Shown: positions 58,423 through 64,000 of the stretch, piece after piece | Numbering within the stretch: the first letter of the stretch is position 1 | How the letters are laid out: each line of letters opens with the position of its first letter | Assembly (NCBI RefSeq): GCF_003298505.1 | Contig: NZ_QNGB01000003.1 | Span: 62,001-126,000 of the forward strand | Source of the DNA: Roseovarius sp. TE539 | GTDB lineage: Bacteria; Pseudomonadota; Alphaproteobacteria; Rhodobacterales; Rhodobacteraceae | Length of the DNA: 64,000 bases | Reading direction: 5' to 3' | The notes under the pieces: generated by a model | Database searches by the model: none | Told to the model about the DNA's origin: nothing | What the model saw: the letters and a program-made list of their open reading frames with translations, nothing else | Program-made: the position numbers and the translations under genes

Positions 58423-60015
<1,593 letters not shown>

Positions 60016-60034
60016 GTCGGGTCTCTTTTGATTG

Positions 60035-60114
60035 TCCTAAGCCTGTCGGCGCGAAATGGGCACATCCTCTGAGCGGTCGCGCCGGATCACGGCACGCTCA
60101 GAGGCGGCTTAGGA
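60035..60114 (-). promoter_or_regulatory. leuA attenuator: three perfect stems with crossing topology
   Basis: Read in transcript order, segment A (60114-60106, tcctaagcc) pairs with A' (60043-60035), 9 bp; B (60104-60095, cctctgagcg) pairs with B' (60075-60066), 10 bp; C (60084-60077, cggcgcga) pairs with C' (60054-60047), 8 bp. B:B' encloses C, and C:C' encloses B', so they are mutually exclusive or form an H-type pseudoknot inside the A:A' helix. The leader peptide's Leu codons and stop overlap A and B. No T-run follows, so the output may be Rho-dependent or translational. leuA starts 19 bases after A'. Confidence 0.85.
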
Positions 60115-60193
60115 GCAGCAGGGCGGCGACAGCACAAGGCGCCGGCCGGATGGACGGTGCGATTACGGTATGGCTGTGACCCTGCGTTCGCAT
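60098..60193 (-). CDS. leuL: Leucine leader peptide (31 aa)
   Basis: The frame starts at ATG 60191-60193 and ends at TGA 60098-60100. The coding end is CTG CTG CTC CTA AGC CGC CTC TGA, giving LLLLSRL: four consecutive Leu codons, then a fifth, then stop, exactly within the base-paired leader region of leuA. This is the classic design of ribosome-mediated attenuation: stalling at Leu codons when charged tRNA-Leu is scarce would change RNA folding. No other start codon exists in this frame. A perfect TATAAT lies only 7 bases before the ATG, so the message may lack a 5' UTR. It is too short for normal gene calling. Confidence 0.82.
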   Translation of the reverse strand: MRTQGHSHTVIAPSIRPAPCAVAALLLLSRL

Positions 60194-60200
60194 GCCGGTT

Positions 60201-60229
60201 ATTATAGGCTTGACGGCGGCTGTTGGAAA
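60201..60229 (-). promoter_or_regulatory. Promoter of the leuL-leuA transcript
   Basis: On the minus strand a perfect -10 TATAAT (60201-60206) follows tttcca (60224-60229, 4 of 6 with TTGACA) at a 17-base spacing. The expected start of transcription, about 7 bases further, falls on or next to the leader ATG at 60193. Confidence 0.7.
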
Positions 60230-60301
60230 CCCCGGAATTTGCCCCCGGGCATTCACCGAACGGGCTTGATACCCGAGGTCGCGCAGCTACTTGCCCTTGT
60301 C

Positions 60302-60967
60302 ATGGAAACAGCTCTCATCATAGGCGCTTCGGGCGGTATCGGCAGCGCTTTATCCGGGGCGCTCGAGGCGCGGAGCGTCAGGGTTACCCGCCTCTCCCGG
60401 CGCAAGGATGGCCTAGACGTGACAGACGAAGCGTCGGTCAAGGCGGCACTCGGGCGCCTGGATGGCGTGTTCGACCTTGTCTTCGTGGCGACTGGCGCTC
60501 TGGAGATTGATGGCGCGCAGCCTGAAAAGGCCCTGTCGCAGGTGACGTCTAGGGCGATGGCGGATCAGTTCATGCTCAACTGCGTAGGGCCTTCTCTGGT
60601 GCTCGGACATGCGCGGCACCTTCTGCCGCGCGACCGCTCGTCGGTCTTTGCGGCGCTGTCGGCGCGGGTCGGGTCGATCGGTGACAACCGGATGGGTGGC
60701 TGGTATTCCTATCGCACGTCCAAGGCCGCGCTGAACCAGATGATCCGTGGCGCCTCGATCGAATTGGCACGCACGCACCCGAAAGCGGCCTGCGTGGCGC
60801 TGCACCCCGGAACTGTCGCAACCGCCTTTACCGAGAAATACCTTGGCCGGCATCCTTCGGTGACCCCGCAGGAGGCAGCACAGAACCTGCTGATGGTGAT
60901 TGACGGGCTCGACGCCGAGGACACCGGTGGTTTCTACGACTGGCAGGGCGAGACGGTGCCATGGTGA
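60302..60967 (+). CDS. SDR family oxidoreductase
   Basis: A 221-residue short-chain dehydrogenase. The NAD(P)-binding motif is IIGASGGIGSAL (residues about 5-16), the catalytic pair is YRTSK (Tyr-x-x-x-Lys) preceded by a Ser-containing ALSARVGSIGDN segment. It resembles C-factor (CsgA)-like SDRs. The ATG at 60302 is chosen because it starts METALIIGASGG; upstream frame extends to 60170 without homology. The stop overlaps the photolyase gene by 7 bases, so the pair is translationally coupled. Confidence 0.93.
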   Translation: METALIIGASGGIGSALSGALEARSVRVTRLSRRKDGLDVTDEASVKAALGRLDGVFDLVFVATGALEIDGAQPEKALSQVTSRAMADQFMLNCVGPSLVLGHARHLLPRDRSSVFAALSARVGSIGDNRMGGWYSYRTSKAALNQMIRGASIELARTHPKAACVALHPGTVATAFTEKYLGRHPSVTPQEAAQNLLMVIDGLDAEDTGGFYDWQGETVPW

Positions 60968-62490
60968 ACCGGTTGATCCTGGTTCTTGGCGATCAGCTTT
61001 CGCATGCGCTGTCGGCGCTGCGCGACGGTGACAGGTCAGGTGATCTGGTGGTCATGGCCGAAGTGGCCGATGAGGCAGCCTATGTGCCCCATCACCCGGC
61101 CAAGATCGCACTCGTGCTGTCTGCGATGCGTCATTTCGCGGAAGAACTGCGGGCGGATGGCTGGCAGGTGGCTTATACCCGGTTCGACGATCCCGGCGCG
61201 GCAACATCCATCGTTGGCGAGCTGCTGCGGCGCGGGCAGGATCATGCAACCGACAAGATCATTGTCACCCGTCCCGGCGAATGGCGGCTGATAGAAGCGC
61301 TGGAAGATGCGCCGCTGACCGTCACGATGTTGCCGGACGACCGTTTCATTTGCCCGACCGAAGTTTTCGATCAGTGGGCGGAGGGGCGCAAGACCTTGCG
61401 CATGGAGTACTTCTATCGAGAGATGAGGCGGCGCACCGGGCTTCTCATGGAAGATGGCACGCCGGCGGGTGGCAAGTGGAATTTCGACCATGACAACCGC
61501 AAGCCCGCAGCGGCCGACATGCTGCGACCCGGACCGAAGCGGTTTGTGCCAGACGCTGTGACCGAGGAGGTGCTCGATCTTGTCGAGGCGCGCTTTGGCG
61601 GCAACTTCGGCCGGCTGCGCCCCTTCTGCCTGGCCGTCACCAGATCCGAAGCCCTGGACGCGCTGAATCACTTCTCCACAAATCTGCTTGCGGGGTTCGG
61701 GGATTATCAGGATGCGATGCTGAACGATGACCGTTTCCTTCATCATTCGGTGCTGTCGCCCTATCTCAACATCGGGCTTCTGGAGCCGATGGAGGTGTGC
61801 GAGCGCGTGGAGCACGAATGGCGTGCCGGGAACGTACCGATCAACGCCGCCGAGGGGTTCATACGCCAGATCATCGGCTGGCGGGAATACATGCGCGGGA
61901 TCTATTTCCGCGAAGGACCCGGCTACACACGCCGCAATGCGCTTGGTCACCGCCGTGACCTTCCGGCGATGTACTGGGGCGCGGAAACCGGCATGGCCTG
62001 CATGCGCAGCGCCATCGCCCAGACCCGCGAGGAGGCGTACGCGCACCACATCCAGCGGCTGATGGTCACCGGCAACTTCGCCCTCCTGGCCGGGGTGGAC
62101 CCGCATCAGGTGCATCAGTGGTATCTGTCTGTCTATGCCGATGCGTTCGAATGGGTGGAGGCACCCAACACAGTTGGCATGAGCCAGTTCGCCGATGGGG
62201 GCATCATCGCCAGCAAGCCTTACGTGAGTTCGGGAAACTACATCGACCGGATGTCGAATTACTGCGGTAGCTGCGCGTATTCGGTGAAGGAAAAGACCGG
62301 TGAGCGCGCGTGCCCCTTCAACCTGCTTTATTGGGATTTCATGGACCGGCACCGTGATCGCTTCGAAGCCAACCCGCGCATGGCTCAGATGTATCGGGGC
62401 TGGGACCGCATGAGCAGCCAAAAGCGCGCGGCGGTGCGGGAAGGCGCCGGCAGAATCCTGGCGCGCCTGGATGCGGACGAACCTGTCTGA
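60961..62490 (+). CDS. FeS-containing bacterial cryptochrome/(6-4) photolyase
   Basis: A 509-residue member of the FeS-BCP (PhrB/CryB) family. The N-terminal antenna-binding domain (NRLILVLGDQLSHALSAL) and the FAD-binding C-terminal part with GRMSNYCGSCAYSV-type sequence (MSNYCGSCAYSVKEKTGERA) are present. Four cysteines, Cys347, Cys435, Cys438 and Cys451, have the same spacing as the 4Fe-4S ligands of Agrobacterium PhrB (350, 438, 441, 454). PhrB repairs (6-4) photoproducts; Rhodobacter CryB is related. The ATG at 60961 overlaps the SDR stop. Confidence 0.95.
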   Translation: MVNRLILVLGDQLSHALSALRDGDRSGDLVVMAEVADEAAYVPHHPAKIALVLSAMRHFAEELRADGWQVAYTRFDDPGAATSIVGELLRRGQDHATDKIIVTRPGEWRLIEALEDAPLTVTMLPDDRFICPTEVFDQWAEGRKTLRMEYFYREMRRRTGLLMEDGTPAGGKWNFDHDNRKPAAADMLRPGPKRFVPDAVTEEVLDLVEARFGGNFGRLRPFCLAVTRSEALDALNHFSTNLLAGFGDYQDAMLNDDRFLHHSVLSPYLNIGLLEPMEVCERVEHEWRAGNVPINAAEGFIRQIIGWREYMRGIYFREGPGYTRRNALGHRRDLPAMYWGAETGMACMRSAIAQTREEAYAHHIQRLMVTGNFALLAGVDPHQVHQWYLSVYADAFEWVEAPNTVGMSQFADGGIIASKPYVSSGNYIDRMSNYCGSCAYSVKEKTGERACPFNLLYWDFMDRHRDRFEANPRMAQMYRGWDRMSSQKRAAVREGAGRILARLDADEPV

Positions 62491-63019: not shown

Positions 63020-64000
63020 TTACTCGGCGGTTTCTTCCGCGCCGGCGTCCTGCGGTTCGGGATCGGTCCGGGCCAGGCTCCCGTCCTGCCACTGGCCGCT
63101 TTCCTCTTCGCCGGAGGCATAGCGCATCGTACCTTCGCCCTGGCGCTTGCCCTTGAGGAACATCCCCTCGTAGACGTCACCATTGGCATAGGTGGCCACG
63201 CCGCGGCCTGAAATCTCACCGTTGCGCCATTCACCGGTGTAACGGAAACCCCCGGGCATAACGATCTCGCCCTCGCCATGGCGTTGCCCCTCTCGGAAGT
63301 CGCCGGTATAGACCGTGCCATCGGGGTATGTGGCCTTGCCCTCGCCGTGGCGCTTGCCCTCTTTCCATTCACCTTCGTACCTGTAGCCATCCTCGTAGGT
63401 CATGACACCGAAGCCGTGGTTCTTGGCGTCCTTGAACCCACCCTCGTAGACCAGACCGTTGGGATAGGTTGCCCGGCCCTCGCCCTCGATCACGCCGTCC
63501 ACCCATTCGCCCTCGTAGGTTGCACCGTCAGGATAGGTGATCTTGCCCTCGCCATTGGCGAGATCGTTGCGGAATTCACCCTCGTAGACCGATCCGTCAG
63601 GGTAGGTCACGCGGCCCTGCCCCGAGATCTGTCCGGCCACCCAGGTGCCCACGTACTTGTAGCCGTCGGTACCGGTGAAGGTGCCCTGTCCGTGGCGCTT
63701 GTCATCCTTGAATTCACCTTCGTAGACATCGCCGTTGGCATAGGTAACGCGCCCTTCGCCTTCGCGGCGGCCGCTTACCAGCGTGCCTTCGTAGACATCG
63801 CCGTTGGGCTGGGTCAGTTTGCCTTTGCCGTCTATCTGTCCGTCCTGCCAGCGCCCCTCGTACACCAGCCCGTCCGGCATTGTCAGGGTGCCCTCTCCAT
63901 GCCGCGCCCCCTGCTTGACCTCGCCTTCATATGTCGCGCCATCCGGGTAGGTGATGCGCGCCTGGCCGTCCTTCACGCCGTTGTCCCAGTCGCCCTCGTA
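63020..64000 (-). CDS. MORN-repeat protein, C-terminal part (runs off window)
   Basis: The 327 visible codons encode 13 good MORN units plus one degenerate final unit, each about 23 residues with the pattern YEGxWxxGxxxGxGxxxYxxG (for example YEGEFKDDKRHGQG). The array already begins at the window edge, so the true start and any N-terminal domain lie outside. A charged tail (TDPEPQDAGAEETAE) ends the protein. MORN repeats bind membranes or partner proteins in many systems; here the function is unknown. It is encoded opposite to the photolyase gene with 529 bases between stops. Confidence 0.9.
   Translation of the reverse strand, partial: YEGDWDNGVKDGQARITYPDGATYEGEVKQGARHGEGTLTMPDGLVYEGRWQDGQIDGKGKLTQPNGDVYEGTLVSGRREGEGRVTYANGDVYEGEFKDDKRHGQGTFTGTDGYKYVGTWVAGQISGQGRVTYPDGSVYEGEFRNDLANGEGKITYPDGATYEGEWVDGVIEGEGRATYPNGLVYEGGFKDAKNHGFGVMTYEDGYRYEGEWKEGKRHGEGKATYPDGTVYTGDFREGQRHGEGEIVMPGGFRYTGEWRNGEISGRGVATYANGDVYEGMFLKGKRQGEGTMRYASGEEESGQWQDGSLARTDPEPQDAGAEETAE

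Follow-up and report, generated by a model that had tools for sequence, protein, structure and literature searches.

The 64,000-nt stretch of Roseovarius sp. TE539 DNA analysed here (contig NZ_QNGB01000003.1; hereafter the window) carries on its minus strand a putative leucine-responsive leader in front of leuA, extending from a promoter near 60229 to the leuA start at 60015. The gene (58423..60015) encodes a 530-aa 2-isopropylmalate synthase that scores 842 bits with NF002087 and 664 bits with TIGR00973, both above cut-off. All features described below lie on the same strand unless stated otherwise. The promoter found by scanning, TTTCCA-N17-TATAAT-N7-ATG, has 10/12 matches for both boxes; its -35 element (60224..60229; TTTTCA-like in relatives) is separated by a 17-nt spacer from the -10 element (60201..60206), which is kept in relatives and stands 7 nt 5' of the leader ATG. 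The open reading frame (ORF) that begins there, leuL (60098..60193), has 31 codons, encodes MRTQGHSHTVIAPSIRPAPCAVAALLLLSRL and ends in CTG CTG CTC CTA AGC CGC CTC TGA (peptide end LLLLSRL), with the four regulatory Leu codons at 60110..60121. An earlier note on this DNA had proposed just such an ORF with a four-leucine end before leuA, and it is present on the minus strand, reading from 60193 to 60098.

The end of the ORF overlaps the first of six RNA segments that pair as three perfect helices in the strand order A-B-C-B'-C'-A'. Helix A (9 bp) joins UCCUAAGCC (60106..60114), drawn from the final two Leu codons and the nucleotides that follow, to A', GGCUUAGGA (60035..60043), which ends 19 nt 5' of the leuA ATG. 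Helix B (10 bp) is formed by CCUCUGAGCG (60095..60104), which holds the UGA stop codon at 60100-60098, and CGCUCAGAGG (60066..60075), and helix C (8 bp) by CGGCGCGA (60077..60084) and UCGCGCCG (60047..60054). B and C cross, forming by sequence a pseudoknot with loops of 10, 1 and 11 nt, and A:A' encloses both, leaving 1 nt from A to B and 3 nt from C' to A'. The helix lengths, the loops and the enclosing A:A' are all as the earlier note had described them. Such an arrangement is rare by chance: when the 87-nt stretch was shuffled 20,000 times with its dinucleotides preserved, 74 shuffles gave any helix of at least 10 bp, none gave a helix of at least 10 bp crossed by one of at least 8 bp, and none gave the full A/B/C arrangement. 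The nested folding energy had a z-score of -2.4, with an equal or better fold in 4/200 shuffles. A simple pattern scan of 59900-60400 turned up no minus-strand terminator-like site, and there is no U-tract; the missing T-run of an intrinsic terminator had been remarked on correctly, and the name 'attenuator', in the strict sense of transcription termination, is unsupported.

We compared the leader with its relatives, beginning with 80 loci of LeuA relatives from genome contigs, 79 of them usable after the incomplete L049 was excluded. A leucine-run ORF precedes leuA in 68/79 by a simple pattern, and a wider look added L007, L008, L010 and L035. Two larger sets were used for counting. The Rhodobacterales set began with 186 loci that had the LeuA motif; a script found a leader in 174, and 130 were kept after removal of 38 loci (those outside the order plus L023, L102 and L103) and six near-identical copies. 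L023, L102 and L103 were left out because the script chose the leader or helix poorly, although L102 and L103 are strong matches to the covariance model R1, which was built from 45 Rhodobacterales cores. The 130 rows were scored by script with partial reading by eye, and the six loci with an intervening gene described below are absent from them. For other Alphaproteobacteria, nine loci were excluded first (eight Rhodobacterales and L119), and 74 loci were examined, 68 of which have a leader, leaving 59 after near-identical copies were removed. Helix B helped to choose the leader in both sets, so that B counts there are biased towards B; for this helix we relied on two alignments, A1 and the class-wide A2.

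R1 matches 195/196 sampled genomes of the order, each with a single match. Across the class it matches 15/289 genomes, four of them from the window's own family, and it was rejected as too specific for a class-wide probe; the model R2, made instead, matches 81/289, five from that family. Both class-wide searches were run with stricter filters and may have missed weak matches. In a phylum sample R2 matches 62/299 genomes, all 62 in Alphaproteobacteria, the share of the sample outside that class being unstated. In each of the 60 class and phylum match loci with fetched sequence (60/60) the LeuA motif lies downstream, and a related version of the element, as judged by its sequence, precedes leuA in other Alphaproteobacteria. 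The alphaproteobacterial leaders usually end in LLLLSRL, LLLLSRP or LLLLSCP, directly before the stop. Leu_leader is the Rfam family of the enteric leucine leader; a search of the window and six related loci against Rfam 15 gave no match at the gathering score, and the sole sub-threshold match was a human long non-coding RNA family on the opposite strand. One locus, L082 (G000:C45:74562-76136), is the second LeuA-like gene of its genome and scores 228 bits, under the TIGR00973 cut-off.

The leucine codons keep a fixed distance from the stop codon across relatives. Counted back from the stop, codon -4 encodes Leu in 130/130 Rhodobacterales leaders and in 59/59 of the others, and codons -5, -6 and -7 are Leu in 117, 126 and 114 of the 130, which supports the proposed leucine leader peptide for leuA. 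Codon -4 is moreover CTT or CTA in 128/130 and 59/59, although these two codons account for 245 of the 3054 Leu codons of the leuA genes in the loci set; the nucleotides are thus constrained besides the amino acid. The motif CTWA at codons -4/-3 (60112-60109 in the window) occurs in 123/130 and 59/59 leaders (182/189), including leaders with weak A:A' pairing. The sequence CUCCUUA is similar to the anti-Shine-Dalgarno end of 16S rRNA.

The promoter keeps an equally strict position. Among the 74 Rhodobacterales leaders with a single in-frame ATG, a TATAAT-like box (at least 5/6) lies 6-9 nt 5' of the ATG in 57 and elsewhere within 0-59 nt in 3; in 40/74 a TTTTCA-like box is spaced 16-17 nt from a -10 box judged by a looser criterion, and AGGA, GGAG or GAGG, resembling a Shine-Dalgarno (SD) sequence, precedes the leader ATG in 0/74. 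In 97/130 relatives a -10 box lies 6-9 nt before an ATG in the frame of the Leu run, the other two frames giving 0 and 1. Because this -10 spacing is conserved, transcription would start at or next to the leader ATG, probably giving a leaderless mRNA for leuL. In the window, 59900-60400 holds two promoter-like sites, one per strand, against 0.1 expected; the plus-strand site (60176-60205) overlaps the leader. A leaderless leader as a general feature outside Rhodobacterales was rejected, with 1/21 single-ATG leaders of this kind; L127 looks leaderless by eye.

Helix B is paired in 98.7% of cells in A1, with both-side changes at 3/10 pairs, and in 95.6% of cells in A2, with both-side changes at 7/10 pairs; none of 500 shuffles of A2 attained any of the five observed measures. 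In the 59 other alphaproteobacterial leaders the stop codon and its partner in B read TGA-TCA in 46, TAG-TTA in 6 (one G-U), TAG-CTA in 1 and TAA-TTA in 1, with the remaining 5 pairing via G-U; these leaders were chosen for a helix over the stop codon, which makes A2 the better evidence. On these alignments, helix B spans the stop codon and covaries with it. For helix C, A1 contains double changes at 4/8 pairs and 80.2% of cells paired, some C' strands having been misplaced by MAFFT. When C' was located by pairing and the C strands were swapped among the 130 loci, own partners were clearly favoured (z -9.4, 0/2000; reversed control z -3.2), and C reaches at least 6 bp in 128/130. Outside the order, clear single cases seen by eye are UUUUGGC:GCCAAAA (L122, AT-rich) and CCGGCGG:CCGCCGG (L050). 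With compensatory changes in both helices and the swap test passed by C, the crossing helices form a conserved pair and are not an accident of a single genome, in agreement with the H-type crossing proposed earlier.

It could still be that no true pseudoknot forms in the cell, with B:B' and a nested hairpin between segment D (UGCCG; 60090..60094) and the 5' strand of C making up one state and C:C' another. The nested minimum-free-energy (MFE) fold of the window has this form, with B:B' closed around D paired to 60084-60080, a pairing that excludes C:C', and both strands of the D:C hairpin show sequence conservation. However, B and C use separate bases, the loop lengths of the window suit an H-type pseudoknot, and covariation is above control for C x C' and not for D x C. 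We regard this alternative as distinctly unlikely. As a conserved switch state the D:C hairpin was rejected, swaps being no better than the reversed control in Rhodobacterales and elsewhere. In L062 and L080, GCCCTGAG-like repeats noticed by eye hinted that a downstream segment might compete with B' in other Alphaproteobacteria, but this gave z 0.3 and is unsupported as a general feature.

Helix A ties the leucine codons to the region before the downstream gene. Over the 130 Rhodobacterales loci, A paired with its own downstream region at a mean of -12.3 kcal/mol vs -9.5 kcal/mol when swapped (z -14.3, 0/2000), and five control segments gave z-scores from -3.1 to +1.2; the enclosing A:A' is strongly covarying in Rhodobacterales by this sequence test. 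Examples are UUCUUCUUACGCU:AGCGUAAGAAGGA in L031 and CUACUAAGC:GCUUAGUAG in L004. The distance and openness tests used only those of the 130 loci with one leuA ATG, 117 and 115 respectively, and the window was computed apart. From the end of A' to the leuA ATG there are 2-13 nt in 41/117 and 14-25 nt in 66/117, with 8 farther away and 2 beyond the ATG. A purine-rich AAGAGA (60022..60027), 6 nt 5' of the ATG in the window, is a weak candidate for the leuA ribosome-binding site, and similar purine stretches were seen by eye in several relatives. Six loci (L008, L010, L035, L114, L117 and L187) carry a small gene between leader and leuA, and there the A'-like strand stands, by eye, directly 5' of the start of the small gene and not of leuA. 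The small gene is Cupin_2 in L114; the L187 and L010 proteins are alike, and the other three have similar starts by eye. In L117, which is of this cupin type, A pairs as CCUAAUC:GAUUAGG (by eye). This natural experiment, in which A' goes with the intervening gene, suggests that A' is tied to the start of the first downstream gene. Masking of the Leu run raised the predicted openness of the leuA start region in 90/115 loci, compared with 56/115 for a control block; the mean predicted openness was 0.475 for free RNA, 0.587 with the Leu run masked and 0.506 with the control block masked. In the window the same masking is predicted to open A' from 0.01 to 0.46.

We propose that the element is a leucine-responsive leader-peptide switch, and it probably acts mainly on leuA translation. 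Transcription would start at the leader ATG (60193) or 1 nt before it, so that the leader is read as a leaderless mRNA. With charged Leu-tRNA plentiful, a ribosome would clear the Leu codons, terminate at the UGA inside B and depart, upon which A:A' would close a compact fold round the B/C pseudoknot and block the leuA ribosome-binding region. With Leu-tRNA scarce, the ribosome would stall at the Leu codons, themselves part of strand A, leaving A' and the start region open for leuA to be translated. The pseudoknot starts shortly past the Leu codons and may additionally slow the ribosome there, given the usual size of a ribosome footprint.

The same stall could instead decide whether transcription terminates ahead of leuA, through Rho or through RNA structure and without a U-tract. 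Transcription is a common target of leader peptides in amino-acid genes (PMC6123439), and in some genomes the leader stands upstream of a cupin-leuA pair, where an effect at the transcript level would reach leuA. Against such termination, the minus strand of 59900-60400 is free of terminator-like sites, the released leader is predicted to be tightly folded and would leave little free RNA for Rho, and A' keeps close to the start of the first gene, a placement that termination would not require. The earlier note had left the choice between Rho, leuA translation and a true pseudoknot; the crossing of B and C is conserved, and translation fits best because there is no U-tract and A' follows the first gene's start even where that gene is not leuA. 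We consider transcription-level control, by Rho or otherwise, unlikely.

The closest known counterpart of this proposed switch is the LEU element of actinobacterial leuA (Seliverstov et al. 2005, PMC1262725), described as a leucine-run ORF, a pseudoknot, a base stem in which leucine codons pair with the SD, and an alternative hairpin. Both elements lie upstream of leuA with a short ORF containing a leucine run, and a pseudoknot inside a base stem is present here by sequence. The base stem with the leuA start region is found here in Rhodobacterales, where A' is within 2-13 nt of the ATG in 41/117 loci only and mostly farther; the alternative hairpin is here in the MFE fold, with D x C covariation not above control. 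The present element belongs to another phylum. LeuL1 of S. lividans is MRFGLLLLSCRGEGL, leaderless and without a typical terminator (PMC8079986), and leaders with four Leu codons also precede leuA in C. glutamicum and C. diphtheriae (PMC4046766, PMC5784534). We read one actinobacterial leader by eye, before the leuA of a Tsukamurella plasmid (L238:503-679), whose LeuA shares only about 28% identity with the window's LeuA. The Leu leader of L238 starts with GTG and reads MQWRALLLGCRGGV; helix B has 11 bp (one G-U), helix C crosses it with 5 bp, and a 5-bp stem of the Leu codons ends 16 nt 5' of the ATG. The parts follow one another as in the window, and the plain nested fold is not unusual (z -1.2). 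In L238, however, the stop codon lies in the first pseudoknot loop, whereas here it lies inside helix B and covaries with it. The architecture of the element matches that of LEU and it probably works in the same way, but with common descent and the overlap with the SD in doubt we stop short of counting it as a LEU element.

Other leaders share single traits. The classical enteric attenuator, E. coli leuL, has a leader peptide with 4 Leu codons (PMC6123439) and resembles the element in placing codons for the pathway product, as a Leu4 peptide, before a leucine gene; in contrast to leuL, the element has no terminator-like site and no Rfam match, and A:A' pairs its Leu codons with the gene start region. 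The leaderless trpL of Sinorhizobium meliloti is an alphaproteobacterial leader ORF at the 5' end of its mRNA (PMC10117765), but it is a tryptophan attenuator and not a leuA pseudoknot element. The uORFC-8-2 motif before cysS in Rhodobacterales, a structured upstream ORF with matching amino-acid codons (PMC8632094), differs in its cysteine codons and its gene; in the main text of that paper the term leuA is absent. The open literature surveyed does not describe a leuA leader pseudoknot in Alphaproteobacteria, the likeliest sources (Vitreschak et al. 2004, Lopatovskaya et al. 2010) lying outside that coverage. The LEU-type design is known in Actinobacteria; judged by sequence comparison, what is new here is the probably leaderless leader ORF, the shift of A' in the cupin loci and the occurrence in other Alphaproteobacteria.

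Several observations weigh against the proposed switch or its generality. The own partner of A ranks in the best tenth for 51/130 loci only, with a median rank of 20.5 of 130, and some A helices are poor (L009 -3.5, L154 -3.9 and L177 -4.2 kcal/mol). Outside Rhodobacterales both A:A' (z -4.3 vs controls -2.0 and -1.1) and C:C' (z -2.9 vs control -0.5) are weakly supported. Swapped C strands average 6.7-bp helices vs 7.4 bp for own partners, so that C helix length alone tells little, and the reversed-C and reversed-A controls are off zero as well (z about -3), so that relatedness accounts for part of the swap signal in both helices. As A' in the window ends 19 nt before the ATG, it would leave a normally spaced SD uncovered, and any block would necessarily be steric. 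Masking A and B together, as by a ribosome on the stop codon, gave an openness of 0.615 vs 0.587 for the Leu stall; because the stop-codon masking opens more, the openness computation backs a role of A but does not speak for leucine itself. By eye, the ATG that goes with the promoter in L097 and L129 is in another frame than the Leu run, and these leaders may be broken or misread. No convincing leader was found in 7/79 leuA relatives (L046, L053, L054, L057, L064, L069 and L079), both named Caulobacter loci among them, and 208/289 genomes of the class had no R2 match.

Evidence from the actinobacterial LEU element also stands against control by leucine codons: their mutation left regulation unaltered, as cited in PMC1262725, whose authors doubted translation of the leader in Actinobacteria, argued for a regulatory protein and left open how LEU works. 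By analogy the pseudoknot here could be the binding site of a protein or ligand, with the Leu run secondary, and GUGCC, a segment in the loop, is well conserved in A1. The best-conserved features of the element include, however, the Leu codons with their frame and fixed distance to the stop, and the leaderless promoter; we consider such a binding site very unlikely.

Beyond the leuA region, the plus strand of the window carries a divergent pair of genes (60302-62490) for a short-chain dehydrogenase (PF00106) and a photolyase-related protein (PF04244). Farther out, a minus-strand ORF (63020-63976) contains repeated YEGEF-like units, which by eye we take to be MORN-like.

If the proposed translational switch is correct, many Alphaproteobacteria have a leucine switch that no Rfam family covers and that would unite the codon run, the RNA fold and the start region in one object, and they would offer tractable laboratory hosts for settling how LEU-type elements work. 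It is a real possibility, though somewhat short of an even chance, that one RNA design serves leuA in two phyla, with leucine codons closing over the start region round a pseudoknot on a leaderless mRNA, either as one mobile or ancient element or by convergence. Convergence, if that reading is true, would be favoured by the complementarity of CUC/CUU codons to SD sequences. The general rule this suggests is that leucine codons can double as an anti-start-site strand, which would allow control of translation without a terminator.
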